From contig DATBAK010000003.1 in the NCBI GenBank assembly GCA_036271555.1, forward strand, positions 1 to 64,000: 64,000 nt of DNA, in the 5' to 3' direction. Position numbers and translations under genes: made by a program. Shown in pieces: positions 11,499-61,421 of this stretch. The DNA comes from Acidimicrobiia bacterium. Lineage in GTDB: Bacteria; Actinomycetota; Acidimicrobiia; IMCC26256; PALSA-610. Position 1 is the stretch's first letter, and every line of letters starts with the position of its first letter. A model generated the notes under the pieces. That model saw only the letters and a program-made list of their open reading frames with translations, had not been told where the DNA came from and did not search any database.

Positions 11499-12227
11499 GT
11501 GCCGGGCCTGAGGGAGTGGCCGGCGTGGGCGGCGACCCGCGCACGGTGGTACTCGACGCTCGAGCGCGCGCCACGGTTGTACTGCGCGTACCTCCGGGAG
11601 CGCGGTGTCGGGACCGTCGTCGACGCGCGCACGACGATCGTGATCGACGGCTCACCGGGCTCGGCGAACAGCTTCGCTCGCGAGGCGCTGCTCTACTCCA
11701 ACCCCGACGCGCAGGTCGCGAGCCACATCCACTCCGCCGCACACATCCTCGAGGCGCTGCGGCTCGGCAAGCCCACGGTGCTCACGATCCGCGACCCGGT
11801 CGACGCGATCAGCTCCTACCTCGCGCGGGGCTATCGGGACGAGCTCGACGACGCGCTGCGCGCGTACGCACGGCTTCACCGGCGCGTCCTGCCCGTGCTC
11901 GATCGCGTCGTCGTGGCACCGTTCGATCGGGTCACGCAGGCGTTCGGCGCGATCGTCGACGAGGTCGACGCGCGCTTCGACACCCGACTCGTCGCGTTCC
12001 CACACGACGATCCCGCCGCGCGCGACGCCGTGTTCGCGACGCTCGAGGCGTACACGCGCGGGGTCGCAGGCGAGCGCGCGACCCAACTGCAAGCGACACC
12101 CACGGCGGAACGGCGCGCGCTCAGTGCCGACGTGCGAGCCCTCCTCCTGGAGCCCGGGCACGAGGCCCTCATCCGTGACTGCGAGACGCTCTACGCGCAG
12201 TGCCTCGCGCACGCCTCGCGGCAATGA
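11499..12227 (+). CDS. Sulfotransferase-like P-loop protein
   Basis: The segment IVIDGSPGSANSFAREALLYS (about residues 47-67) resembles the 5'-phosphosulfate binding loop of PAPS sulfotransferases. TVLTIRDPVDAISSYLARG (about 93-111) resembles the 3'-phosphate binding motif (RDP..A..S). The total length of 242 is at the lower end for the family. Its stop overlaps the start of the phosphopantetheinyl transferase (ATGA at 12224), so the two are translationally coupled and probably serve the same pathway. Sulfonation of the peptide product is an inference; a degenerate nucleotide-binding role cannot be excluded. Confidence 0.6.
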   Translation: MPGLREWPAWAATRARWYSTLERAPRLYCAYLRERGVGTVVDARTTIVIDGSPGSANSFAREALLYSNPDAQVASHIHSAAHILEALRLGKPTVLTIRDPVDAISSYLARGYRDELDDALRAYARLHRRVLPVLDRVVVAPFDRVTQAFGAIVDEVDARFDTRLVAFPHDDPAARDAVFATLEAYTRGVAGERATQLQATPTAERRALSADVRALLLEPGHEALIRDCETLYAQCLAHASRQ

Positions 12228-12889
12228 CGAGCGTCGACGTGTGGAGCCTCCGACTCGGGCCGGATGCGCGGGCGGAGCGCGACGCGTGGAGCGTGCTCAC
12301 GCCCGACGAGCAGCGTACGGCCGATCGCTACCGCGATCCTGCCGACCGCGCCGCCCGGATCCGTACGCGCGCGCTGCTCCGGACGGTGCTCGGGCGCGCG
12401 TTGGATCGTGATCCGCGCGTGGTCGAGATCATCGCGACCGCCGACGGCAAGCCCGTGCTCGCCGACCCGGCCGTGCCTCGGTTCAGCGTGTCGCACTCGC
12501 GTGCGCTCGCGGTCGTCGCGGTCGTCGCGACCGGCGCGACCGAGCTCGGCATCGACATCGAGCCGCGGCGCGACTTCGCATGGGCGGAGGTCGCCGAACG
12601 CTTCTTCGCGCCCGCCGAACGCGCCGCGATCGACGGCCTCGCCGCCGGCGAGCGGCTCGACGCGTTCCTCGCGATCTGGGTCCGCAAGGAGGCCTACCTG
12701 AAGGGCCTCGGCCTCGGCTTCACCGACGTGAGCGACGACTTCGAGGTACCGCTCGGCGACGGGTTCGTGCACGATCCCGCGCGCCCGTCAACGCGGTGGT
12801 ACCTGCACGGCCTCGATCTCGATATCGACCACGCCGCCGCGCTTGCGGTCGCCGACGCTCCCGCGACCGTCGTCGTGCACGAGGTCTGA
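12224..12889 (+). CDS. Sfp-type 4'-phosphopantetheinyl transferase
   Basis: This enzyme moves the phosphopantetheine arm of CoA onto the serine of carrier domains, and the neighbouring synthetases need it. The family motifs are visible in order: FSVSHSRALAVVAV (about residues 90-103), ELGIDIEPRRD with the Mg-binding acids, and WVRKEAYLKGLGLGF. The ATG at 12224 overlaps the preceding stop. The length of 221 residues is normal. Its last 102 bp lie antisense to the 3' end of the C-A-T-TE synthetase gene. Confidence 0.92.
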   Translation: MTSVDVWSLRLGPDARAERDAWSVLTPDEQRTADRYRDPADRAARIRTRALLRTVLGRALDRDPRVVEIIATADGKPVLADPAVPRFSVSHSRALAVVAVVATGATELGIDIEPRRDFAWAEVAERFFAPAERAAIDGLAAGERLDAFLAIWVRKEAYLKGLGLGFTDVSDDFEVPLGDGFVHDPARPSTRWYLHGLDLDIDHAAALAVADAPATVVVHEV

Positions 12890-15800
12890 GCGGTCGAGCA
12901 CATCGGTGAGCGCGCTCGCGAGGACGCCCACGTGGGGCTCGTCCATCAGCGTGTCGTGGCTCACGCCGGGTCCGTCGACGAGGTACGTCCGCTCGGCACC
13001 GTCGACGAACCGCACCGCGCTCGTCGACGCGCTCGGATCCCCGGCACGGAAGAACGTGAGCGGGCAGCCGATCACGGGCACGACGTACGACTTCAACGCG
13101 CGTCCGAGCGCGCGCTCGAGTGGCCATTCGGGTTCGGCATCACCGGGGCGGCGCACGCGTACGTAGTCACCGAGTCGCGGGCGCGCGTCGACACGCGTGC
13201 GCGCGTTCGTGAGCCGCCGGCGCAGGTACGTGCCGGTGGTCTCCTCGCCACGCATCAGGGCCGCGAGCTGCGCGGCCTCACGGCGCGGGCGCGAGTCCTT
13301 CACGAGGTCGGTCGGGTCGGCGTCGAACAGCGCGAGCGCGGCGACCGTGTGACCGAGCGCCTCGAGCTGGTGCGCGACCTCGATCATCACGATGCCACCG
13401 AAGCAGAAGCCCGCGAGCTGGTACGGACCCTCGGGTTGGAGCCGAAGCACGTCGTCGCGATAGCGGCGCGCCAGCTCTTCGAGGCGCAGGCGGCGGCGAC
13501 CGCCGAGCACCTCGGCCGTCGGGCGGAGACCGAACACCGGCTGGTCGGAGGCCAGGTGCCGCACGAGCCCGGTGTACCGGAAGAGGAGGCCACCGACCGT
13601 GTGCCCCACCACGAGCGGCCGCCGCCCACCCAGCGGTTGCATCGGAACGATCGTCGTGTCGTCGACCGCGTGACGTTCGATCGCGCGCGAGATCTCGCGA
13701 ATCGTCGGTGACGCGAACATCAACGCGAGCGGGATGTCGCGCCCGGTCTGCCGGGCGGTGCGCGCGAACAGGACCGCCGCGAGCAGCGAGTCGCCGCCGA
13801 GCGCGAAGAAGTTGTCGTCGATGCCGACGCGTTCGAGACCGAGGACCTCGCACCAGATCGCGGCCTGGGCGCGCTCCACCGGTGTCATCGAGTCGTCGTC
13901 CGTCACACCGTCGGTGAGATCGATCACCGCGGGGAGCGCGCCGCGATCGAGCTTGCCGGTACTCGTCATCGGCAACCCGTCGACGGGCACGACCGTGGCG
14001 GGCACGAGATGTGCGGGAACGCGCTCGCGCAAGTGGTCACGCAGCTCGCGTGCCGACGTGCCGTCGGCGACGACGTACGCGATCAGACGACGGCCGCGCG
14101 CCTCGGCGCCGTCGGTCGCGACGACCGCGGCGGCGGAGACGGCGGGGTGCTCGAGCAGCAGCGCTTCGACCTCGCCGGGCTCGACACGGAAGCCGCGGAT
14201 CTTCACCTGTGCGTCGACCCGGCCGACGAACTCGATCGTGCCGTCGACGCGGAAACGGGCGCGGTCACCGGTGCGGTACACGCGCGCCCCTGGGTCCGCG
14301 CGGAACGGATGCGGCACGAAGCGTTCGGCGGTGAGCTCGGGCCGGTGCAGATAGCCGCGCGCGAGGCCGGCGCCGCCGATCAGCAGCTCGCCGACGACAC
14401 CGACCGGAACCGGCTGGTCGTGCGCGTCGACGATGTAGACGTCGGTGTTCGCGATCGGACGGCCGATCGGGATCGTCGCGCCCTCCGCGTCGAAGGGGCG
14501 GACGTCGTGGCAGACGGCGTCGGTCGTCGCCTCGGTCGGGCCGTAGCCGTTCACCAGCCGCAGGTCGGGCAGCAGTCGCAGCGCCTCCTTCGCGTGCGCG
14601 GGCGAGAGCACGTCACCGCCGACCGCGAGCTGGCGCACGCCGACGAGGTCGCGCCACGACTCGTCGACGACGAGGTGGAACAGCGCGGGCGTGAGGCAGA
14701 CGGCGTCGACCCGCTCGCCGCGCACGAGCGATCCGAAGCGCGCGAGCGAGAACGGCTCGTCGGGGGCGATCACGAGGCGGCTGCCGTGCAGGAGCGCGCC
14801 CCAGATCTCGAACGTCGCCGCATCGAACGCGAGCGGAGCGAGGTGGAGCATCGCGTCGATCGCGCCGAAGTCGACGTAGTCGACGCCGAAGAGACGGGCG
14901 AGCACGTTGCGGTGCTCGATCATCACGCCCTTGGGCGATCCGGTCGATCCGGACGTGTAGATGACGAACGCGAGCGCGTCCGGTGCCGTCGTGACGGCCG
15001 GCGCGGACGCGGGCTCCTTCTCGATGCTCGCGGCGTCGTGTTCCAGCCGAACGACGTGAGCGCCGCCGCTCGGCAGCTCGGCGCCCGAGCGCGTGACGAC
15101 GAGGTCGACGTCGGCGTCCTCGATCATGAGGCGCAGCCGCGGCTCGGGATAGGCCGGGTCGAGCGGCACGTACGCGCCGCCGGCCTTGAGCGTCGCGAGC
15201 AGCGTGACGATCGCGTCGACCGAACGGGGCAGATGGATGCCGACTCGCGACTCGGGGCCGACACCGTGCACGACAAGGTGGTGCGCGAGCTGGTTAGCGC
15301 GCGCGTCGAGCTCTCCATAGGTCACCGATTCGTCGAGCGCGGTGAGCGCGATCGCGTCTGCATGCGCCGCGGCGGCCGTCGCGAACTGCTCGTGAATGGT
15401 GCGCGCCGGAAACGGAGCGCGCGTCTCGTTCCACGAGACGAGCATGCGGTGGCGTTCCTGGCGCTCGAGCAGGTCGTACGAGTGCACCGGCGCGGCCGGG
15501 TCGGCCACGATCGCGGCGAGCAGCACGAGGAAGTGGCGCACGATCCGCTCCGCGGTACCGCGGTCGTACAGGTCGGTCGCGTATTCGAGCGTGCCGGCGA
15601 TCGTGGCGCCCGACTCCTGCAGCTCCATCGAGAGGTCGAACATCGACGTGCCCGTCTCGATGTCGAGGACCTCGCTCGTGACGCCCTCGAACCGAAGGTC
15701 GCGCGCGGGCGCGTTCTGGAACACGAACAGCTGCTGGAACAGCGCGGTGTGTCCGAGGGACCGCATCGGCGCGAGCGCCTGCACGACCTGCTCGAACGGC

Positions 15801-16813
15801 GCGTCCTGATGCGAGTAGGCCACCAGCGCGGTCGCACGCACGCGTGCGAGCACGTCGACGAACGCGGGCTCGCCGGAGAGATCGGCCCGCAGCGCCACAG
15901 TGTTGGCGAAGAAGCCGAGGAGGTCGTTCGTCTCGCGCCGGGTGCGGTTCGCGATCGGTGTGCCGACCACGATGTCGTCCTGGCCCGTGTACCGCCCGAG
16001 CAGCAGCTGGTACGCGGCGAGCAGCACCATGAACGGCGTCGCCCGCCCGGCTCGAGCGACGCGCCGCACACCGGTGGTGAGCTCCGGCGAGAGCTCCACC
16101 CCGACCTGCGCACCGCGCCCGGAGCGCCGGTGCGGACGCGGCCGGTCGCCGGGCACTTCGAGTAGCGGCGGCATGCCGTCGAGCGCGTGCACCCAGTAGT
16201 CGACGTGGCGCGCGGTCGTCGCGTCGGCCTGTCGCTGCCAGACCGCGTAGTCGGCGTACTGGATCTCCGGCGCCGCGCGCTCGGAGCGGGGCTCGTCGCG
16301 CACGAACGCGTCGTACTGCATGCTGATCTCGTCGAGCATCAACGACTCGGACCACGCGTCGGTCGCGATGTGGTGCATCGTGAGCGCGAGGATCCACTCC
16401 TCCTCGCGCACGCGCACGACGAGGGCGCGGAACACCCGTCCGGTCGCGAGGTCGAAGCGCCGGCGGCACTCGATGCGCACCCGGCGACGCGCCTCGGTGT
16501 CGGCGTGCGCGCGCCGGCTCAGGTCGACGACGCGCAGGTCACACGGACGTTCGGGTCCGATCAGCTGGACCGGCCGACCGTCAACAGTCGGGAAGCCCGT
16601 ACGCAGCACCTCGTGGCGCGCGACGAGCTCGTCGAGCGCGTGCCGCAGCGCGTCGACGCGCAGCCGGCCGTGCAGTCGCCGCACCACCGACACGTTGTAC
16701 GTCCACGAGATCGGCTCGAGCTGGTCGAGCAGCCAGATGCGCTGCTGCGCGAACGACAGCGGGAGCTCACCGCCGCGCGCCACCGGGACGATCGGGCGTG
16801 GGTCGCGGGTCAT
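12788..16813 (-). CDS. Single-module peptide synthetase, C-A-T-TE
   Basis: I place the start at ATG 16813, which overlaps the stop of the upstream P450 gene (ATGA). The 1341-residue enzyme has four domains in order. Condensation opens with LSFAQQRIW (about 19) and has HHIATDA (about 147) as its active-site motif. Adenylation runs from about 480 to 960, with IYTSGSTGSPKG near 620 and the lysine in TSTGKLDR near 956. The carrier motif is DNFFALGGDSLLA near 1008. The thioesterase has GFCFGG near 1137 and a late SHDTLMDEPHV. The specificity code, read by eye against GrsA, is D-A-F-C-A-G-G-T-D-K, which I cannot match to a known amino acid. The TE nucleophile is Cys in place of Ser. There is no epimerase or methyltransferase domain. 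It probably accepts the aminoacyl group from the A-T protein. Confidence 0.92.
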   Translation of the reverse strand: MTRDPRPIVPVARGGELPLSFAQQRIWLLDQLEPISWTYNVSVVRRLHGRLRVDALRHALDELVARHEVLRTGFPTVDGRPVQLIGPERPCDLRVVDLSRRAHADTEARRRVRIECRRRFDLATGRVFRALVVRVREEEWILALTMHHIATDAWSESLMLDEISMQYDAFVRDEPRSERAAPEIQYADYAVWQRQADATTARHVDYWVHALDGMPPLLEVPGDRPRPHRRSGRGAQVGVELSPELTTGVRRVARAGRATPFMVLLAAYQLLLGRYTGQDDIVVGTPIANRTRRETNDLLGFFANTVALRADLSGEPAFVDVLARVRATALVAYSHQDAPFEQVVQALAPMRSLGHTALFQQLFVFQNAPARDLRFEGVTSEVLDIETGTSMFDLSMELQESGATIAGTLEYATDLYDRGTAERIVRHFLVLLAAIVADPAAPVHSYDLLERQERHRMLVSWNETRAPFPARTIHEQFATAAAAHADAIALTALDESVTYGELDARANQLAHHLVVHGVGPESRVGIHLPRSVDAIVTLLATLKAGGAYVPLDPAYPEPRLRLMIEDADVDLVVTRSGAELPSGGAHVVRLEHDAASIEKEPASAPAVTTAPDALAFVIYTSGSTGSPKGVMIEHRNVLARLFGVDYVDFGAIDAMLHLAPLAFDAATFEIWGALLHGSRLVIAPDEPFSLARFGSLVRGERVDAVCLTPALFHLVVDESWRDLVGVRQLAVGGDVLSPAHAKEALRLLPDLRLVNGYGPTEATTDAVCHDVRPFDAEGATIPIGRPIANTDVYIVDAHDQPVPVGVVGELLIGGAGLARGYLHRPELTAERFVPHPFRADPGARVYRTGDRARFRVDGTIEFVGRVDAQVKIRGFRVEPGEVEALLLEHPAVSAAAVVATDGAEARGRRLIAYVVADGTSARELRDHLRERVPAHLVPATVVPVDGLPMTSTGKLDRGALPAVIDLTDGVTDDDSMTPVERAQAAIWCEVLGLERVGIDDNFFALGGDSLLAAVLFARTARQTGRDIPLALMFASPTIREISRAIERHAVDDTTIVPMQPLGGRRPLVVGHTVGGLLFRYTGLVRHLASDQPVFGLRPTAEVLGGRRRLRLEELARRYRDDVLRLQPEGPYQLAGFCFGGIVMIEVAHQLEALGHTVAALALFDADPTDLVKDSRPRREAAQLAALMRGEETTGTYLRRRLTNARTRVDARPRLGDYVRVRRPGDAEPEWPLERALGRALKSYVVPVIGCPLTFFRAGDPSASTSAVRFVDGAERTYLVDGPGVSHDTLMDEPHVGVLASALTDVLDRSDLVHDDGRGSVGDRKRGGVVDIEIEAVQVPPR

Positions 16814-18036
16814 CGGAGCGGCAACGGGAGGGATTCGAGACCGCGGAATGCGCCCGCGTCGGCGCGCCACGTCACGGTGGCCGGTGCCGCGACCGGACCG
16901 AGGCGATCGGCCAACGCGGTGAATGCGAGCTGCGCTTCGAGACGCGCGAGCGGAGCGCCGAAGCAGTGGTGCGTCGAGAACCCGAACGCGAGGTGACGGT
17001 TGGCCGCGCGCTCGATGTCGAGCCGGTCGGGATCGGGGAAGACCGCCGGGTCGCGGTTTGCGGCCGCGAGCACCGCGATCACGGCCTGCTGACGCTCGAT
17101 GCGTCGCCCGGCGAGGGTCACGGTCTCCACCGCGACGCGCGCGGTGTGCTGGATCGGGCTGTCGTAGCGGAGCAGCTCTTCGACCGCGGCGGGGATGCAC
17201 GCGGGCTCGTCGCGCACGCGCGCCCATTGGTCGGAGTGACGCAGCAGCGCGAGCAGGCCGTTGCCGATCAGGTTCGTCGTCGTCTCGAGCCCGCCCACGA
17301 GCGTGATGATCGCGTTCGCGACCGCCTCGTCGTCCGACAGACCGTCGCCGACGAGCGCGTCGAGCAGACCTACCGGTCGCCGGGCACGATCGCGCAGCGC
17401 GCCCTCGAAGTACTCGGTGATCGACGCGACCGCGCCGCGCAGGCGCGCCGCGCGCACCGGGCCGTGCTGGAAGTTGCCGAGCAGCTCGGCGAACGCGCGC
17501 GTCCACTCGCTGAGCCGCGGCCAGTCGACGGTCGGCAACCCGAGCATCTCGCAGGACACGATCGCGGGCAGCGGGCGCGCGAAGTCGGCGATCACGTCGA
17601 ACCCGCCGGCGCGCGCGGCGTGCGTCAGCAGCTCGTCGACGACGGCCGCGATCCGCTCGCGCAGCGCGTCGACGCGCGGCGGCGTGAAGCCCTTGGCCAC
17701 GATCATGCGGACGCGTGTGTGCTCGGGCGGGTCCATGTAGAGCATCTGGCGGACCATCACCCGGGCGATCGGCGTGAGCGCTTCCAGGCCGAGCGACGCG
17801 AGCAGCTCGGGTGACGGCGTGCGCGCCGCGGAGAAATCCTGGAGCACGCTCATCACGGGCTCGTGCGCGGTGACCACCCACGTGTGCAGGAACGGATCCC
17901 AGTGCACCGGGTCTTCGGCGCGCAGACGGTGGTACAGCGGATACGGATCCTCCCGCAGCTCCGGCGCGAGCAGCCGGTAGAGGCTCAGCCCCGCATCGCC
18001 CACTGTGCCCGCCGGCGCGGCGGCTCCCCTCGCCAT
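16810..18036 (-). CDS. Cytochrome P450 of the synthetase operon
   Basis: The start ATG 18036 follows GGAG eight bases upstream and lies 4 bp after the stop of the A-T gene. Its own stop overlaps the next gene's ATG. The 408-residue product has LVGGLETTTN in the I-helix, EELLR as ExxR and FGFSTHHCFGAPLARLEAQ around the haem cysteine (about residue 359). Being wedged between a free-standing A-T protein and a C-A-T-TE protein is the classic position of P450s that beta-hydroxylate an amino acid while it is tethered to a carrier domain (compare the NovH/NovI pairing). That function is inference from context. Confidence 0.92.
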   Translation of the reverse strand: MARGAAAPAGTVGDAGLSLYRLLAPELREDPYPLYHRLRAEDPVHWDPFLHTWVVTAHEPVMSVLQDFSAARTPSPELLASLGLEALTPIARVMVRQMLYMDPPEHTRVRMIVAKGFTPPRVDALRERIAAVVDELLTHAARAGGFDVIADFARPLPAIVSCEMLGLPTVDWPRLSEWTRAFAELLGNFQHGPVRAARLRGAVASITEYFEGALRDRARRPVGLLDALVGDGLSDDEAVANAIITLVGGLETTTNLIGNGLLALLRHSDQWARVRDEPACIPAAVEELLRYDSPIQHTARVAVETVTLAGRRIERQQAVIAVLAAANRDPAVFPDPDRLDIERAANRHLAFGFSTHHCFGAPLARLEAQLAFTALADRLGPVAAPATVTWRADAGAFRGLESLPLPLR

Positions 18037-18040
18037 GTCG

Positions 18041-19777
18041 TCACTCCGCAGCGGAGTGCAACGCTCGGGCGTCGCGCTCGATGATCGCCGCGATGCCCGC
18101 GGCCGTCGGGTTGTCGAACACCTCGAGCAGCTCGACCTCGACGTCGAACTCCTCTTCGAGGCGCGCGACGAGCTGCGCCGCCATGAGCGAGTGCCCGCCG
18201 AGCTCGAAGAAGTTGTCGTCGCGACCGACCGCCGGCAACGCGAAGAGCTCCTCGAGGATGGCGCCGACCGCGCACTCCGTCGCCGTGCGCCCGACCTGTT
18301 CCGGACGGACCGCGACCACGGGCGCCGGCAGCGCGTCGCGGTCGACCTTGCCGCTGCTCGTGAGCGGGAACGCGTCGAGCGCGACGAACGCGCTCGGGAC
18401 CATCGCCGCCGGTAGCCGGCGTGCAACGTGCGCGCGCATTTCGCGCCGGTCGACGCTCGAGCCGGCCGCGGGAACGAGGTAGGCGACGACCTGTGCACCG
18501 CCCGGCGCGCGATCGCGTGCGACGACGCAGCAGCGCGCAACATCGGGATGGGCGCTGAGCACCGACGCGATCTCGTCGAGCTCGACGCGCTGGCCGCGAA
18601 TCTGCACCTGCTCGTCGACGCGACCGACGAACTCGAGCTCGCCACCGGCCGTCGCGCGCACGAGGTCGCCGGTGCGGTACACGCGCGCGCCCGGGGCGGG
18701 AGCGAACGGATCGGGACCGAAGCGCTCGGCGGTGAGGTCGGGGCGACCGAGATAGCCGAGCGCGACGCCGGGGCCGCCGATCCAGAGCTCGCCGCACTCG
18801 CCGGCGTGCACCGGGAAGCCGTCGGCGTCGACCACGTAGGTACGAGTCTCCGCGATCGCGCGGCCGATCGTTGGGAGGCCGACGCCGTCGGGATCGACCG
18901 CGCCCGAGGTCGACACGACCGTCGCCTCGGTGACGCCGTAGTTGTTGACGACCGTGAACGGAGTGCCGGAACGCGGCCGGAGGTGGAGGCGATCGCCGCC
19001 CGTCAGCATCACGCGCAGCGCGACGTCGTCGGGCCACGCGAGCGTCAGCAGCATCTCCGCGAGCGGGGTGGGTACGAACGCGACCGTGATCGCCCGCGCG
19101 ACGAGCCAGTCCCGAAGCCGGTCGGGTGACGCGACGACGTTCGCATCGGGGACGTGCACGCTCGCGCCCGCGACCAGCGCGGGCCACGTCTCCCACATCG
19201 ACGCGTCGAACGCAGGGCTCGCGATCCACGACGCGCGGTCGTCGGGTCCGACGGCGAACGCGCGCCCGTGCCAGTCGACGAGGTGCGCGAGATTCGCGTG
19301 CGTCACCTGCACGCCCTTCGGCACGCCGGTCGAACCGGACGTGTAGACGACGTACGCGACGTCGTCGCCGTCGACGACATCGTCGAGCGCGCTCGTGCAC
19401 ACGTCGACCGCGCGCGCGATGTCGACGAACATGGCGCCCGCGGCTCCGAGCCGCGCCCCGATCGACGCGCTGCCGATCACGACGCGAGCGCGCGCGTCGC
19501 GGATCATGGCGACGAGACGCGCGTCGGGATGCGCCGGGTCGAGCGCAACGTACGCGCCGCCCGCCTTCCACACCGCGAGCGCGGCGACGACCGCGGCCGC
19601 GGAGCGCTCCTCGCACAGCGCGACGGGCACACCCGGACCGACACCCGCGGCGCGGAGCCGCTGCGCGAGGCCGTTCGCGCGCCCGTCGAGGGCTGCGAAG
19701 GTGATGGGGCCGCGCGCGTCGACGATCGCGATCGCGTTTGGGCCCGCCCGCGCGGTCGCGCGCATTCGAGCATGCAC
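18041..19777 (-). CDS. Free-standing adenylation-carrier (A-T) didomain, code predicts leucine
   Basis: The frame is open to 19996, but adenylation homology starts at SVHARMRATARAGPNAIAIV, so I use GTG 19777 (GTG 19810 or ATG 19765 are alternatives). YVVYTSGSTGVPKGV lies near residue 147, the A10 lysine in SSGKVDRDAL near 478, and the carrier motif DNFFELGGHSLMAAQL near 529. The ten specificity residues, read by eye against GrsA, are D-A-W-F-L-G-N-V-V-K. From memory this is an exact match to a published leucine code. There is no condensation domain, so it loads an amino acid and presents it to a partner. It is the first gene of a three-gene operon with a P450 and the C-A-T-TE enzyme. Confidence 0.9.
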   Translation of the reverse strand: MHARMRATARAGPNAIAIVDARGPITFAALDGRANGLAQRLRAAGVGPGVPVALCEERSAAAVVAALAVWKAGGAYVALDPAHPDARLVAMIRDARARVVIGSASIGARLGAAGAMFVDIARAVDVCTSALDDVVDGDDVAYVVYTSGSTGVPKGVQVTHANLAHLVDWHGRAFAVGPDDRASWIASPAFDASMWETWPALVAGASVHVPDANVVASPDRLRDWLVARAITVAFVPTPLAEMLLTLAWPDDVALRVMLTGGDRLHLRPRSGTPFTVVNNYGVTEATVVSTSGAVDPDGVGLPTIGRAIAETRTYVVDADGFPVHAGECGELWIGGPGVALGYLGRPDLTAERFGPDPFAPAPGARVYRTGDLVRATAGGELEFVGRVDEQVQIRGQRVELDEIASVLSAHPDVARCCVVARDRAPGGAQVVAYLVPAAGSSVDRREMRAHVARRLPAAMVPSAFVALDAFPLTSSGKVDRDALPAPVVAVRPEQVGRTATECAVGAILEELFALPAVGRDDNFFELGGHSLMAAQLVARLEEEFDVEVELLEVFDNPTAAGIAAIIERDARALHSAAE

Positions 19778-19924
19778 CGACCGACCCAGCCGCCCGCCCC
19801 GTTGACCCACGGGCCTTACATAACCGGCGATCCTCCGGGATAAACCGCGAATCGGCGGCCGATTCTCAGGCGAAAGCGGTACGCGAGTCGACGGCGCCCC
19901 CGTCGGCGGACTCAGGATGGGACG

Positions 19925-21190
19925 GTGAGCCTCGACGCCGATCCCGCGGTCCCGGTCCCCGTGCCGATCCGGACCCGGCTCGGGCGGGCGCGGCACCGCA
20001 CGTTCTCGTCACTCGGCAGCCGCAACTACCGGCTGTTCTTCTTCGGTCAGCTCGTCTCGAACACCGGCAACTGGCTCACGATCGTCGCCCTCACGCTGCT
20101 CGTGCTCCACCGCACCAACAGTGGTGTCGCGGTCGGTGCGCTGAGCGCCTGCCAGTTCGGACCGATCCTCCTGCTCTCCGCGTGGGCCGGCGCGATCGCC
20201 GACCGCCACGACAAGCGCCGGCTCCTCTTCTTGACGCAGAGCCTCGAGATGTTGCAGTCGGCCGCGCTCGCGGTGCTCGCGTTCCTGCCGCACGCGCCGC
20301 TCGGCGCGCTGTTCGCGACCGCGTTCGCGGGCGGCATCTTCCTGTCGTTCGACAACCCGCTGCGCCGCTCCTTCGTGACCGAGATGGTCCCGCGCGAAGA
20401 GATGACGAACGCGGTCGCGCTCTACAGCGCGATGGTGAACGCGTCGCGCATCTTCGGCCCCGCGCTCGCGGGTGTGCTCGTGGTCGCGTTCGGGTTCGGT
20501 TGGGGCTTCACGGTCGACTCGGCGTCGTACGTGTTCGTGATCGCCGCGCTCGCGATGATGCGGACCGCCGAACTACGACGGGCACCACCGCCCGAGCGCA
20601 CGAAGGGCGAGATCCGCGCGGGGCTGCGCTACGTCGCGAGCCAGCCGAACCTGCGTATCTCGTTCATCATGCTCGCGGTCGTCGGCGTGCTCGGTTACAA
20701 CTTGAACGTCGGGCTCCCGCTGTTCGTCGAGCACTCGTTGCATCGCGGCGACGCTGCGTTCACGTTGCTGTACTCGCTCTTCAGCACCGGCGCGCTCGTC
20801 AGCGCGCTCGTCGTCGCGGGTCGCAGCCTGGTGCGTCTGCGTCACATCCTCATCGGCGCGGCCGCGTTCGGCATCGCGAACCTGTTGCTCGCGCCGGCGC
20901 CGAACATCGCGCTCGCGATCCCCGCGGTGCTGCTCGTGGGCGTCACGAGCATCATGTACATGACCGCGACGACCGCGATCGTGCAGGTCGAGGCGGACCC
21001 GTCGATGCACGGCCGGATCCTCGCCCTTCAGGCCGTGTTGCTCGTCGGCTCGGCACCGATCGGCGGCCCCCTCGTGGGCATCATCGCCGACCTCGCCGGA
21101 GCCCGGGCGCCGCTCGTGATGGGCGGCGTGGCGTCGATCGCGGCGGCCGCATGGGGCTGGTCCGCGGCCCGCAAGGCGGCCCGCGCGTAA
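19925..21190 (+). CDS. MFS exporter (EntS/MFS_3 type)
   Basis: The GTG at 19925 gives a 421-residue protein with about twelve hydrophobic segments. The first cytoplasmic loop reads GAIADRHDKRRLLF, the classic MFS motif A region, and the N-terminal NYRLFFFGQLVSNTGNWL is typical of the MFS_3 (enterobactin exporter-like) group. It is divergent from the A-T synthetase gene, which makes it the likely exporter or self-protection pump for the peptide. The protein at 42981-44267 is a close paralogue over its full length. Confidence 0.88.
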   Translation: MSLDADPAVPVPVPIRTRLGRARHRTFSSLGSRNYRLFFFGQLVSNTGNWLTIVALTLLVLHRTNSGVAVGALSACQFGPILLLSAWAGAIADRHDKRRLLFLTQSLEMLQSAALAVLAFLPHAPLGALFATAFAGGIFLSFDNPLRRSFVTEMVPREEMTNAVALYSAMVNASRIFGPALAGVLVVAFGFGWGFTVDSASYVFVIAALAMMRTAELRRAPPPERTKGEIRAGLRYVASQPNLRISFIMLAVVGVLGYNLNVGLPLFVEHSLHRGDAAFTLLYSLFSTGALVSALVVAGRSLVRLRHILIGAAAFGIANLLLAPAPNIALAIPAVLLVGVTSIMYMTATTAIVQVEADPSMHGRILALQAVLLVGSAPIGGPLVGIIADLAGARAPLVMGGVASIAAAAWGWSAARKAARA

Positions 21191-34240: not shown

Positions 34241-34256
34241 TTCTCCGGCTGGCACG

Positions 34257-34292
34257 TTGTATGCGGCCGCATACAACCGGTATCCTCCCGGC
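34257..34292 (+). promoter_or_regulatory. 20-bp perfect palindromic operator and leaderless-type promoter of the UGSC operon
   Basis: TTGTATGCGGCCGCATACAA (34257-34276) is a perfect palindrome 16 bp upstream of the operon's ATG. Its left edge gives a TTGTAT -35-like hexamer; 18 bases on is TATCCT (34281-34286), a good -10, which would place the transcript start at or beside the ATG at 34293. A repressor on the palindrome would block the promoter. The MarR gene at the operon's end (36159) is the obvious candidate. Confidence 0.7.
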
Positions 34293-34844
34293 ATGACCGA
34301 CACCGACACGATCTGGGTGCGTCGACCGACGGCCGAACCGGCCGGAGACGAGAGCGCACCGGCCTTCACGCTCGACCGCCCCGTCGGGGGGCTGACGATC
34401 GGAGTGCGCGCCGACCGCGCCTGGCGCTCGTGGCAGCTCATCTCGAGCATCTGGTCCGAGCGATTGCAGGGCGAGGGCGCATCGACGATCGAGGTCGAGA
34501 CCGGCGCGCAGATGGGGCAGCCCGGCGCCGAGGACCGCAAGGAGATCGAAGAGCTCGCGAACACGACCGACGCCGCGATCATCGGCCTCGGCACGTGCGG
34601 CTCCTGCACGACGTTCACGATCAAGGACGCGGTCGTCGTCGAAGCGCACTCGAAACCCGTCGTCGCGATCGTCTGCGAGGAGTTCCTCGTGCACGGGCGC
34701 AACGTCGCGACGCACCTCGGTCATCGCGACCTGAAGATCCTCGTACTGCCGTATCCGCTCGAGGCACGACCGGAGGACGAGCTGCGCGCGATCGCCGACG
34801 AGTACTACCCGAAGGTGCTCGAGCTGCTCGGGGTGTCGGTGTGA
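34293..34844 (+). CDS. UGSC-family (cysteine form) protein
   Basis: The 183-residue product contains IIGLGTCGSCTTFTIKDAVVVE at about residues 88-109, the CGSC counterpart of the Sec-containing UGSC motif known in predicted selenoproteins. The first Cys codon is TGC, so no selenocysteine is involved here. The fold appears alpha/beta, with VVAIVCEEFLVHGRNVA and ILVLPYPLEARPEDEL after the motif. A redox or thiol-based reaction is likely but undescribed. First gene of a four-gene operon; its stop overlaps the next GTG. Confidence 0.8.
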   Translation: MTDTDTIWVRRPTAEPAGDESAPAFTLDRPVGGLTIGVRADRAWRSWQLISSIWSERLQGEGASTIEVETGAQMGQPGAEDRKEIEELANTTDAAIIGLGTCGSCTTFTIKDAVVVEAHSKPVVAIVCEEFLVHGRNVATHLGHRDLKILVLPYPLEARPEDELRAIADEYYPKVLELLGVSV

Positions 34845-35887
34845 CGCTCACGAGCGAACGGGTCGAGATCGCGGCCGATCCGCGCGCGCAGTACACGCGT
34901 GCGCTCGACGAGCACTGGGGCGACGGCGTTCCTCTGCTCCCCGCGACCGACGACGCGGTCGACGCGTTGCTCGCGGCGTCGCCGTACCCGGCGGATCACG
35001 TGCTGTGCGTGCTCCCGCCCGTCAACGGCGTCGCGACCGTCGAGCTCGTCGCGATCAACGCCGCGATGGCCGGTGTCGAGCCCGCGGCGTTCGCGGTCGT
35101 CCTCGCCGCGCTCGAAGCGCTGTCGGAACCGGAGTGGAACGCCTTCGGTCTCACCACCACGACCTCGAGCGTGTTCCCGATGCTCATCGTGAACGGCCCG
35201 TGCCGCGACGAGCTCGCGATCGACTACCGCGCGAGCTGCATGGGCGGTGCCGCAGGTCGCGGGTCGATGACCATCGGGCGCGCGGTCGCGCTCTGCCTGC
35301 GCAACATCGGCGGGCAGCGCGCGGGCGAGACCACGAAATCGGTGTTCGGCCAGCCCGCGCGGCTCGGCTTCTGCATCGGGGAGTGGGAAGAGCGCTCGCC
35401 GTGGCCGTCACTCGCGGTGCGGCGTGGCTTTCGCGCCGAGCAGGACGTCGTCACGGTGCACGGCGGCAAGGGCACGTTCCCGATGGCCGACATCCACAAC
35501 GACGACCCGCGCGACCTGCTCTACCTCATCGCCAAGAGCATCGCCTATCCGCTCGCCAACATGTACCTCGGCAACCCCCAGAACGGCGAGGTCGTGGTCG
35601 CGTTCAACCCCATGTGGGCGGAGCGCTTCGGCGCTGCGTTCCCCGATGTCGACGACCTGCAGGCGTACCTGCGCGAGCACGCGTGCCAGCCCGTCGACCT
35701 GTGGCCCGAAGGGAACGCGAAGATGCTGCGCGACCGCGGGCGCGTCGACGCGCAGGGCCGCGTGCACCTCGTGGAGCGACCGGACCAGATCGTGCCGATG
35801 GTGTGCGGCGGCCTCGGCAGCCTGCACGCGATCGCACTGCCGAGCTTCGGCGAGAGCTTCATGCAGTCGCGCGCCGTCGTGCGATGA
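34841..35887 (+). CDS. UGSC-operon partner protein, 348 aa
   Basis: The GTG at 34841 overlaps the UGSC gene stop. The protein is soluble, without signal peptide. It has several Cys residues in distinct contexts (RASCMGGAAGRGSMTIGRAVALCLRNIGG, ARLGFCIGEWEERSPW, VPMVCGGLGSLHAIALPSFGESFMQSRAVVR at the C-terminus) and a Gly-rich RASCMGGAAGRG stretch that could bind a phosphate or cofactor. I recognise it only as the usual neighbour of UGSC genes, not as a characterised enzyme. The tight coupling suggests the two form a complex or act in sequence. Confidence 0.7.
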   Translation: MTLTSERVEIAADPRAQYTRALDEHWGDGVPLLPATDDAVDALLAASPYPADHVLCVLPPVNGVATVELVAINAAMAGVEPAAFAVVLAALEALSEPEWNAFGLTTTTSSVFPMLIVNGPCRDELAIDYRASCMGGAAGRGSMTIGRAVALCLRNIGGQRAGETTKSVFGQPARLGFCIGEWEERSPWPSLAVRRGFRAEQDVVTVHGGKGTFPMADIHNDDPRDLLYLIAKSIAYPLANMYLGNPQNGEVVVAFNPMWAERFGAAFPDVDDLQAYLREHACQPVDLWPEGNAKMLRDRGRVDAQGRVHLVERPDQIVPMVCGGLGSLHAIALPSFGESFMQSRAVVR

Positions 35888-36162
35888 CGACCGCCGCGCA
35901 CGCACGCTTCGAGGCCGAGGTCACGAGCGCGGTCGACGAGGTCGCGCGCATCCTGCGCGCCGACGGCGCCGACCTCACGATCGTCGACGCCGACCCGCGC
36001 ACCGCGCGGGTGAGGCTCGCGTTGGTGCTCGACTCGGTGTCGTGCGAGGACTGCGTGCTGCCACCCCCGATGCTGTTCGACACGATCGAGCAGTCGCTGC
36101 ACCGCCGCGTCGCGGGCGAGTTCGAGCTGCTGCTCGACGATCCCCGCACCGTCACCGGGTGA
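35884..36162 (+). CDS. NifU-like CxxC domain protein, 92 aa
   Basis: The ATG overlaps the upstream stop (ATGA). The order of elements, an N-terminal helix, ADLTIVDADPRTARVRLALVLD strands, then SCEDCVLPPPMLFDTIEQSLHRRV, copies the C-terminal NifU scaffold domain. The CxxC sits at the strand-helix junction. In NifU that pair carries a labile Fe-S cluster. Here the motif is CEDC, not CxGC, so cluster binding is plausible but unproven. It is coupled to the MarR gene by GTGA. Confidence 0.65.
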   Translation: MTTAAHARFEAEVTSAVDEVARILRADGADLTIVDADPRTARVRLALVLDSVSCEDCVLPPPMLFDTIEQSLHRRVAGEFELLLDDPRTVTG

Positions 36163-36617
36163 CCGACGCCGACCCGATCGGCGCCTGGAGCGCGCTGGTC
36201 GCGGTGTATCAGAGCGTGCTGCACGACGTCGTGGGCCGGCTCGGCGACGAGGCGGGCATCGACTCCGGGGTGTTCTCCGCGCTGGCCTATCTCGAGCGCT
36301 CGGAACCGGCACACCGGATCCGGCTTTCCGAGCTGCAACGGCTCATGCACCCGCGCTACAGCCAGCCGGGCCTGAGCCGGCTCGTGCAGCGGATGGAGAC
36401 CGACGGCATCGTCGAACGCCGCGCCGATCCCGACGACGGGCGCGCCGCGATCCTCGTCACGACCGCGCGCGGGCGGCGCGCGTACGAGCGCGCGAACCGC
36501 GTGTACGAAGCCGCGGTGCACGAGCACTTCGGACGACATCTCGACACGCGCGACGGCGCGCGGCTCGAAGCGATGCTCGGACGCGTGATGACACAGCGCG
36601 ACGCGGCGCGTCGCTAG
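36159..36617 (+). CDS. MarR-family transcriptional regulator
   Basis: The GTG overlaps the preceding stop. The 152-residue protein is a winged-helix MarR: RLSELQRLMHPRYSQPGLSRLVQRMETDGIVERRADPDDGRAAILVTTARGRRAYE covers the recognition helix and wing with the conserved DxR turn. MarR proteins usually bind 16-20 bp palindromes and release on ligand or thiol oxidation. The operon's own promoter carries such a palindrome (34257-34276), so autorepression of the UGSC operon is the natural hypothesis. Confidence 0.88.
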   Translation: MTDADPIGAWSALVAVYQSVLHDVVGRLGDEAGIDSGVFSALAYLERSEPAHRIRLSELQRLMHPRYSQPGLSRLVQRMETDGIVERRADPDDGRAAILVTTARGRRAYERANRVYEAAVHEHFGRHLDTRDGARLEAMLGRVMTQRDAARR

Positions 36618-59781: not shown

Positions 59782-60069
59782 ATGGCCGACTGGACCACCG
59801 AAGCCGTCGACACGATCGAGAAGGTCGTCGGCGCGGTGCGCGAGCGCACCGTCGTCCCCGCGCACCGGTTCACGCGCGTGGTCGTCTACGGCATGTTCGC
59901 CGCGTTCGCGGTCGTCACCGCGCTCGTGCTGCTCGTTCTCGGAGCCTTCCGCGGCGGCGTGCTCGTCGCGCAGGGTGAGGTGTGGGCGGTCTGGCTGGTC
60001 CTCGGGGGAATCTTTGTGGTGCTGGGGCTCTTCTTCTGGGCCAAACGCAGCCCGAGGAGCAGTGAATGA
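59782..60069 (+). CDS. Small two-span membrane protein
   Basis: The 95-residue product has an N-terminal amphipathic helix (TEAVDTIEKVVGAVRERTVVPAHRF) and two membrane spans (VVYGMFAAFAVVTALVLLVLGAF and VWAVWLVLGGIFVVLGLFFW) ending in a basic tail. The family is unknown. Its stop overlaps the trxB ATG (ATGA), so it is translated with thioredoxin reductase. Confidence 0.8.
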   Translation: MADWTTEAVDTIEKVVGAVRERTVVPAHRFTRVVVYGMFAAFAVVTALVLLVLGAFRGGVLVAQGEVWAVWLVLGGIFVVLGLFFWAKRSPRSSE

Positions 60070-61001
60070 GCGGGAACCCGAGCGCCGTGCGCGACGTCGT
60101 CATCGTCGGATCGGGCCCGGCCGGCCTCACGGCCGCGGTCTACACCGCGCGTGCGAACCTCGAGCCGCTCGTCATCGAGGGCGTCGGTGCCGGTGGGCAG
60201 CTCATGCTCACGACCGACGTCGAGAACTTCCCCGGTTTCCCGAACGGGATCATGGGCCCAGAGCTCATGATGCTGTTCCGCGAGCAGGCGCAGCGTTTCG
60301 GCGCCGAGTTCGTCTCCTCCGACGTCGACCGCGTCGACCTCTCGCAACGCCCCTTCCGCATCCACGTCGGCGACGCCGAATACCAGGCGAAGTCGGTGAT
60401 CATCTCCACCGGCGCGACCGCGAAGATGCTCGGCCTCGAGTCGGAGCAGCACCTGCTCGGGCACGGTGTGTCGACCTGCGCGACGTGCGATGGCTTCTTC
60501 TTCCGCGATCTGCCGATCGCCGTCGTCGGTGGCGGCGACTCCGCGCTCGAGGAAGCGAACTTCCTCACGCGCTTCGCGACGAACGTCACCCTGATCCACC
60601 GGCGCAAGGAGTTCCGCGCGTCGAAGATCATGCAGGACCGCACGTTCGCGAACCCGAAGATCAGCGTGTTGTGGAACACCGTCGTCGAGGAAGTGCTCGG
60701 CAATGGCAAGGTCGAAGCGCTGCGCATGCGCGACGTCGAGACCGATTCGACGAGTGATCTCGCGGTGAGCGGCGTGTTCGTCGCCATCGGTCACACACCG
60801 AACACGGCGCTGTTCGAGGGCCAGCTCGACTTCGACGAGAACGGCTACATCCTCACCAAGGCAGGCTCGTCGGCGACATCGATCCCCGGCGTCTTCGCGG
60901 GCGGCGACGTGCAGGACCACATCTATCGGCAGGCGATCACCGCCGCGGGTTCCGGCTGCATGGCCGCGCTCGACGCCGAGCGTTATCTCGAAGCGCTGTA
61001 G
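60066..61001 (+). CDS. trxB: Thioredoxin reductase
   Basis: The 311-residue flavoprotein has the FAD motif VVIVGSGPAGLTAAVYTARA, the redox pair CATCDG at about residues 138-143, the NADPH motif IAVVGGGDSALEEANFL and GVFAGGDVQD near the C-terminus. It reduces the thioredoxin encoded next. In mycobacteria this gene also follows the sigM/anti-sigma pair. Confidence 0.96.
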   Translation: MSGNPSAVRDVVIVGSGPAGLTAAVYTARANLEPLVIEGVGAGGQLMLTTDVENFPGFPNGIMGPELMMLFREQAQRFGAEFVSSDVDRVDLSQRPFRIHVGDAEYQAKSVIISTGATAKMLGLESEQHLLGHGVSTCATCDGFFFRDLPIAVVGGGDSALEEANFLTRFATNVTLIHRRKEFRASKIMQDRTFANPKISVLWNTVVEEVLGNGKVEALRMRDVETDSTSDLAVSGVFVAIGHTPNTALFEGQLDFDENGYILTKAGSSATSIPGVFAGGDVQDHIYRQAITAAGSGCMAALDAERYLEAL

Positions 61002-61091
61002 CGCTGCGAACGGCGCGGAATCGCCGCCGGCAGGCGGGTGTTCCGCAACCGACGGGTACACTCCACCCGCTTTGCGAAAGGAACGTTCTCC

Positions 61092-61421
61092 GTGTCCGAC
61101 GCCATTGTCACGTTGTCCGATTCCACGTTCGACGAGTCCGTGCTGGGCTCCGACGTCCCGGTCGTCATCGACTTCTGGGCCGAGTGGTGTGGACCTTGCA
61201 AGATGATCGCCCCCGTTCTCGAGGACATCGCCAACGAGAACAAGGGCAAGCTCGCCGTCGCCAAGTTGAACGTCGACGACAACCCCGACATCGCGCGTCG
61301 TTACGAGGTGCTCAGCATCCCGACGCTGCTCGTGTTCCAGGAGGGTGAGCTGCGCAAGCGGCTCGTCGGCGCCAAGGGCAAGGCGCAGTTGCTGCAGGAT
61401 CTGTCCGAGTTCATCGCTTGA
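61092..61421 (+). CDS. trxA: Thioredoxin
   Basis: The true start is GTG 61092 (VSDAIVTLSDSTF) behind AAGGA; TACACT at 61057-61062 is a -10-like hexamer, so a second promoter is possible. The 109-residue product has the active site WAEWCGPCKMIAP, the cis-Pro strand SIPTLLVFQEGE and a full thioredoxin fold. It is the substrate of TrxB. Its stop overlaps the TTG start of cwlM. Confidence 0.96.
   Translation: MSDAIVTLSDSTFDESVLGSDVPVVIDFWAEWCGPCKMIAPVLEDIANENKGKLAVAKLNVDDNPDIARRYEVLSIPTLLVFQEGELRKRLVGAKGKAQLLQDLSEFIA

Follow-up and report, generated by a model that had tools for sequence, protein, structure and literature searches.

The UGSC family of (seleno)proteins was first described in 2008 from metagenomes, and a thioredoxin-like fold was suggested for it (PMC2398784). 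That study also reported UGSC fused to an unnamed domain, 'Unknown_1'. In a literature search, no function was found for UGSC. The closest enzymes with described chemistry are the GrdB/PrdB proteins (PF07355) of the glycine, sarcosine, betaine and D-proline reductases. In glycine reduction, the chain runs from NADPH through TrxB and Trx to GrdA and GrdB (PMC3091704), and a GrdB-type protein has been proposed to cleave the C-F bond of fluoroacetate (PMC10838667).

We analyzed a 64,000-nucleotide stretch of DNA (the window) from a soil actinobacterium of the class Acidimicrobiia (the host), in which an earlier note had pointed to a four-gene operon containing a UGSC gene and proposed an undescribed, self-contained and inducible redox or metal-sulfur pathway. 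All four open reading frames and the three 4-bp overlaps between them (GTGA, ATGA and GTGA) were confirmed. The features of the locus are as follows.

34256-34277, no strand: perfect 22-bp palindrome GTTGTATGCGGCCGCATACAAC, proposed MarR operator, with the core TATGCGNNCGCATA at 34260-34273
34257-34286, + strand: putative promoter with TTGTAT and TATCCT hexamers 18 bp apart; the start codon follows 6 bases on, nearly leaderless
34293-34844, + strand: UGSC-family gene, Cys form, 183 aa, ATG start; PF24696 match
34841-35887, + strand: UGSC partner gene, 348 aa, GTG start; without a Pfam or NCBIfam family
35884-36162, + strand: NifU-like gene with CxxC (C54, C57), 92 aa, ATG start; family-profile match
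36159-36617, + strand: MarR-family regulator gene, 152 aa, GTG start; PF12802; proposed autorepressor

The sequences of all four proteins are conserved in other genomes, and chance open reading frames are therefore ruled out. The word "undescribed" does not hold for the core of the system, because the UGSC family had already been described (PMC2398784). The flanking genes, encoding a beta-helix protein on the 5' side and, on the opposite strand of the 3' side, a YkuD-like protein, point to no pathway. Thioredoxin reductase and thioredoxin genes are located about 24 kb downstream of the operon, near a ParB-like gene (window positions 60066-61421); they are a possible electron source without a specific tie to the operon. 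A separate region of the window (12224-21190) encodes, as read from the translations, a phosphopantetheinyl transferase, condensation/adenylation proteins, a cytochrome P450 and an MFS exporter, and is likely a nonribosomal-peptide cluster.

The product of the first gene belongs to the UGSC family by its Pfam score (114.3 bits against PF24696; cut-off, 25), whereas its score against the NCBIfam equivalog NF041046 was 72.4 bits, under the curated cut-off of 125. The thiol motif reported earlier was found as CGSC at residues 102-105, the position of UGSC in the family; C102, G103 and C105 were invariant across 34 members, and the window protein keeps the conserved D112, E117, P122, F131 and P155. 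It differs from the PF24696/NF041046 family in having Cys instead of Sec and in its linkage to NifU-like and MarR genes. In contrast to the thioredoxin-like fold suggested previously (PMC2398784), the AlphaFold2 model (mean pLDDT 91) was a Rossmann-like alpha/beta structure of five alternating strand-helix units, in which C102 follows strand 3 directly and begins a helix. A thioredoxin fold was also rejected by comparison with the thioredoxin-domain profile, which scored 15.6, a background-level value. The matches of the structure search (Z about 9-11) were scattered among many different Rossmann-like folds and indicated no function, and the sequence search found no solved structure for UGSC. 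In Paracoccus ferrooxidans pFER4 (L120, 5420-7077, near selB), a UGSC gene with TGA is misannotated as two separate hypothetical proteins.

Comparison of the UGSC profile with that of the GrdB/PrdB C-terminal region gave a score of 42-44 (E 4e-6 to 1e-5), and the Sec/Cys columns were aligned. The controls were far lower: 60 shuffles of the GrdB columns did not exceed 18.8, the highest score among five other families was 18.3, and the reversed profile gave 16.0. The match spans only 60-89 columns, and the homology indicated by these profiles is between the active-site half of UGSC and the selenocysteine domain of GrdB/PrdB. Further likenesses are the UxxC pattern, which is also that of short PrdB-like actinobacterial proteins, the interchange of Sec and Cys, and, in relatives, a genomic link to thioredoxin; the actinobacterial grd operons examined carry a thioredoxin gene. 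On the other hand, the window UGSC had no match to the Pfam GRDB model (PF07355) at E<=1, GrdA, GrdC and GrdD were not seen among the neighbours of the window operon or its relatives, and no counterpart of GrdE was found in the UGSC system, which has another partner protein. UGSC is also present in many aerobe-type bacteria and haloarchaea. The farACEB fluoroacetate reductase operon (PMC10838667) is comparable in its GrdB-type protein, in the unusual carbon-heteroatom bond cleavage proposed for it and in being substrate-induced, but it has a true GrdB/GrdE pair in an anaerobe and neither UGSC nor the partner.

Homologue searches were performed with the partner, NifU-like and MarR proteins. Eight public contigs from Actinomycetota MAGs contained partner homologues (72-87% identity), and in all eight the partner gene was followed by the NifU-like gene, with UGSC directly upstream wherever the contig reached. 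The partner was found in 104 of 296 genomes in a sample of the host's class. UGSC was found in 24 of 296 genomes in a phylum sample, and in almost all of them the partner gene lay next to it. Adjacent UGSC and partner genes, sometimes fused, were observed across Actinomycetota, Pseudomonadota and Halobacteria, where phyla other than the host's were sampled through plasmid records only. A lack of co-conservation, which the earlier note had named as a finding against its proposal, was not observed: UGSC and the partner rarely occur apart. UGSC, partner and NifU-like genes occurred together in every member of the window clade whose contig reaches all three. Overall, the majority of UGSC-partner pairs lack a NifU-like protein. 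From these searches, the core is UGSC plus the partner, the NifU-like gene is fixed in the window clade, and the MarR gene is present in part of that clade. The proposed co-conservation held for UGSC, partner and NifU-like, and for MarR in part of one clade; the four-gene arrangement is a lineage-specific version of a two-gene core.

A descent tree was made from 89 partner sequences. The window falls in a clade of 17 (SH-aLRT 98), which is nested among Sec forms, with in-frame TGA and without the NifU-like gene. In the window clade, every readable UGSC has Cys, and all members have the NifU-like gene. The host itself has a tRNA-Sec with anticodon TCA and a SelB over the cut-off, together with a second UGSC copy with TGA in frame, beside a thioredoxin-partner fusion (L011, contig C54, 23313-25279). 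Since the clade is nested in Sec forms and the host decodes selenocysteine, the tree places the window operon as a Sec-to-Cys conversion within a Sec-using lineage, and the NifU-like gene appears on the same branch. According to the tree, NifU-like genes became linked to UGSC on at least three occasions. Across three independent pairs, the relation of the Cys state to NifU-like presence was consistent in direction and not significant (p 0.25-1), and L067, a Sec UGSC with a NifU-like neighbour, is a counterexample.

The partner protein had no Pfam or NCBIfam match at E<=1. Its length of 348 residues was confirmed; the description of it as cysteine-bearing holds in a narrower sense, in that C178 is the single nearly family-wide cysteine (34 of 38). 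The invariant polar residues are D28, R147 and E181. The AlphaFold2 model had a mean pLDDT of 89; the best matches of the structure search (fumarase, cyclic amide hydrolases and chorismate mutase) had Z of 5-7, which is the background level, and therefore no fold is claimed. The sequence search found no solved structure for the partner. As there is no convincing match to a solved fold, a substrate-binding role of the partner is a guess. Two candidates were rejected: the partner had no profile similarity to GrdE (hhalign probability 0.1), the GrdE/PrdA-type proprotein compared here, or to the N-terminal half of GrdB. Because UGSC-partner fusions were found here (L111, L112 and L119), the domain called 'Unknown_1' in PMC2398784 may be the partner. 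In four haloarchaeal plasmids (L113, L115, L116 and L122), two different partner genes flank the UGSC gene, which suggests a heteromeric three-subunit form in haloarchaea.

Linkage to thioredoxin was found repeatedly in the relatives. Many genomes in the host's class and phylum encode a partner with a fused N-terminal thioredoxin domain, which has CxxC and the VPT motif and matches solved thioredoxins at E 6e-6. The gene order in Arthrobacter is TrxB-TrxA-partner-UGSC::NifU; TrxB lies beside the UGSC pair in Roseovarius and Variovorax SRS16, and TrxB-like flavoproteins do so in Haloterrigena and V. boronicumulans. TrxB or TrxB-like genes were thus present in 5 of about 17 annotated loci, against a rough chance expectation of 1e-7 to 2e-5 that counts related plasmids as independent. 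The window operon, in contrast to these relatives, has no thioredoxin gene beside it. The redox role proposed earlier is supported by the thioredoxin fusions, the TrxB/TrxA neighbours and the homology to the selenocysteine domain of GrdB/PrdB. The same linkage, together with the conserved second Cys, speaks against a lyase, hydrolase or isomerase without redox chemistry, whose Cys/Sec nucleophile would not turn over through a disulfide. The Rossmann-like UGSC model with Cys at a helix start suits such an enzyme, as does the weak resemblance of the partner fold to cyclic amide hydrolases and class I fumarase chains, but those fold matches are at background level, and we consider this explanation improbable.

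In other lineages, the neighbours of the pair were family III CoA-transferases, TRAP/tricarboxylate (TTT) transporters, acyl-CoA dehydrogenases, a CoA ester lyase and DUF6282; in unannotated loci they were partly read from translations, and a subset was checked by Pfam or NCBIfam. These neighbours place the pair in small organic acid catabolism, and because the neighbouring genes vary widely, no single substrate is indicated. DUF6282, which is amidohydrolase-like, adjoins the UGSC pair in haloarchaea (L104 and L118, Natrinema) and actinobacteria (L161 and similar loci), and a literature search found nothing on it. A phosphosulfolactate-synthase-like gene (127 bits, below the cut-off) was found in the operon of the Arthrobacter sp. 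ERGS1:01 plasmid (L109, 4719-8863), which also holds TrxB, TrxA, the partner and the UGSC::NifU fusion, and a gene annotated as phosphosulfolactate synthase lies close to UGSC in Natrinema zhouii (L118) as well. These neighbours could hint at a sulfonate-related substrate.

The third protein scored 20.2 bits against the NifU C-terminal (Nfu) domain PF01106, below the Pfam cut-off of 27. The profile of its family, however, matched solved NifU domains (2z51, E 2.7e-6), and C54 and C57 were invariant in the family, in agreement with its earlier description as a CxxC NifU-like protein. The NifU-like part of the UGSC::NifU fusion in Arthrobacter scored 27.2 bits, at the Pfam cut-off. When the NifU-like protein was used as a query, the 17 best matches besides the window all adjoined a partner homologue, as compared by hand from coordinates. 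In a profile search of the phylum sample, the five UGSC-linked NifU-like genes scored at least 90 bits versus less than 43 bits for other NifU-domain genes. Because the profile includes these five sequences among its rows, their high scores are to some extent expected, and the query with the single protein serves as the independent test. The operon protein differs from PF01106 in forming its own subfamily, tied to UGSC and not to Fe-S assembly genes. Because the NifU-like part in Arthrobacter is fused to UGSC beside TrxB-TrxA, it probably assists UGSC and does not take the place of thioredoxin.

The retained CxxC, the match to solved NifU domains and the Arthrobacter fusion could also be understood if the NifU-like protein hands a cluster or sulfur to UGSC or to the partner as a metalloenzyme. 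This Fe-S or sulfur-transfer module seems distinctly unlikely, as a NifU-like protein is missing from most UGSC-partner pairs, the partner has one near-invariant Cys instead of a conserved set for a cluster, and the host has another NifU-domain gene elsewhere (contig C97). No evidence was found for the metal-sulfur pathway proposed in the earlier note.

The last gene of the operon encodes a winged-helix MarR-domain protein (37.2 bits against PF12802; cut-off, 27), which confirms the regulator. A perfect 22-bp palindrome, overlooked previously, ends 15 bases 5' of the UGSC start codon and covers the TTGTAT hexamer and most of the spacer of the inferred promoter. The same promoter layout was observed in three relatives (L003, L004 and L008). 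A scan for consensus promoters and terminators detected nothing above the threshold, the inferred promoter included. The exact core TATGCGNNCGCATA occurred once each in six of eight genomes searched, always at the UGSC promoter, and was absent from the other two, whose versions are degenerate. Where a relative had a readable promoter and an operon that includes MarR, 10-12 of the 12 core bases always matched, whereas 6-9 of 12 matched in all promoters of operons known to be without MarR; a further relative, in which the contig stops short of where MarR would be, matched at 10 of 12. Shuffling indicated that about one site with two mismatches is expected by chance in the window alone, so the weight rests on the conservation of the operator and its genome-wide uniqueness. 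With MarR as a query, the seven best matches besides the window all close the same operon. Two MarR orthologues are unlinked to the operon (G411:C115 and G472:C204), in genomes whose operon (L009 and L010) lacks MarR; there, a degenerate operator-like site GATGCATCCGCATG stays 5' of UGSC.

A unique conserved palindrome overlapping the promoter fits a dedicated MarR autorepressor, and the comparative evidence for the adjacent palindrome as a putative MarR-binding operator is strong. As in other MarR-type local autoregulators, the gene lies within the operon that it seemingly controls and the palindrome lies over the promoter; it differs in that the operator is apparently a single genomic site. 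The predicted operator, unique in the genome, favours the self-contained, inducible set that had been suggested.

OhrR-type MarR proteins sense oxidants or electrophiles, and the window MarR is weakly similar to the OhrR and BilQ models. UGSC might accordingly be a thiol peroxidase or electrophile reductase for detoxification, with MarR sensing the oxidant or electrophile. The MarR control and the UxxC/CxxC active site suit this, the neighbours of the window operon are not catabolic, and GrdB peroxidase activity appears in the title of reference B55 cited by PMC3091704. However, the operons of the relatives, with transporters and CoA-transferases, better fit catabolism, and peroxidases do not usually have an obligate partner of 350 aa. 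We regard detoxification as unlikely.

The explanation that we prefer, at just short of an even chance, is that the operon encodes an inducible, dithiol-fed two-subunit reductase working like GrdB of glycine reductase. Starting from the computed operon, its co-conservation, the GrdB/PrdB homology, the thioredoxin linkage in relatives, the Sec-to-Cys direction and the unique operator, we infer the catalysis, the roles of the partner and NifU-like proteins, the repression and the inducer as follows. UGSC would provide the catalytic nucleophile (C102 in the window protein, Sec in most relatives), and C105 would serve as the resolving thiol. The partner would bind and position a small, probably carboxylate-bearing substrate via R147, E181 and D28. 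The nucleophile would attack the substrate, and a bond would be reductively cleaved or reduced; the resulting disulfide (or selenenylsulfide) of UGSC would then be re-reduced by a dithiol protein, which in relatives would be thioredoxin. In the window clade, the catalytic Sec has been replaced by Cys and the NifU-like CxxC protein has joined the operon, where it probably serves on UGSC as an accessory dithiol or Fe-S-binding module. MarR would repress the operon on the palindrome over the promoter and be released when it binds an inducer, for which the substrate or a related electrophile would be likely candidates.

More broadly, and somewhat more tentatively, UGSC and the partner may constitute an unrecognised class of thioredoxin-driven Sec/Cys reductases, a sister branch of GrdB acting on small organic acids in aerobic bacteria and haloarchaea, with swappable modules (the thioredoxin domain, the NifU-like domain and a second partner) and substrate-specific regulators. 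The links of UGSC to GrdB/PrdB, to thioredoxin and to NifU-like proteins appear to be new here, as do its obligate partner family and the MarR switch with a single site. The partner, the regulator, the likely electron donor and the enzyme family of known chemistry to which UGSC is homologous make a long-standing unknown open to ordinary tests. The Cys form of the window would be easier to express because selenocysteine insertion is avoided, and the inducer of MarR could reveal the substrate.
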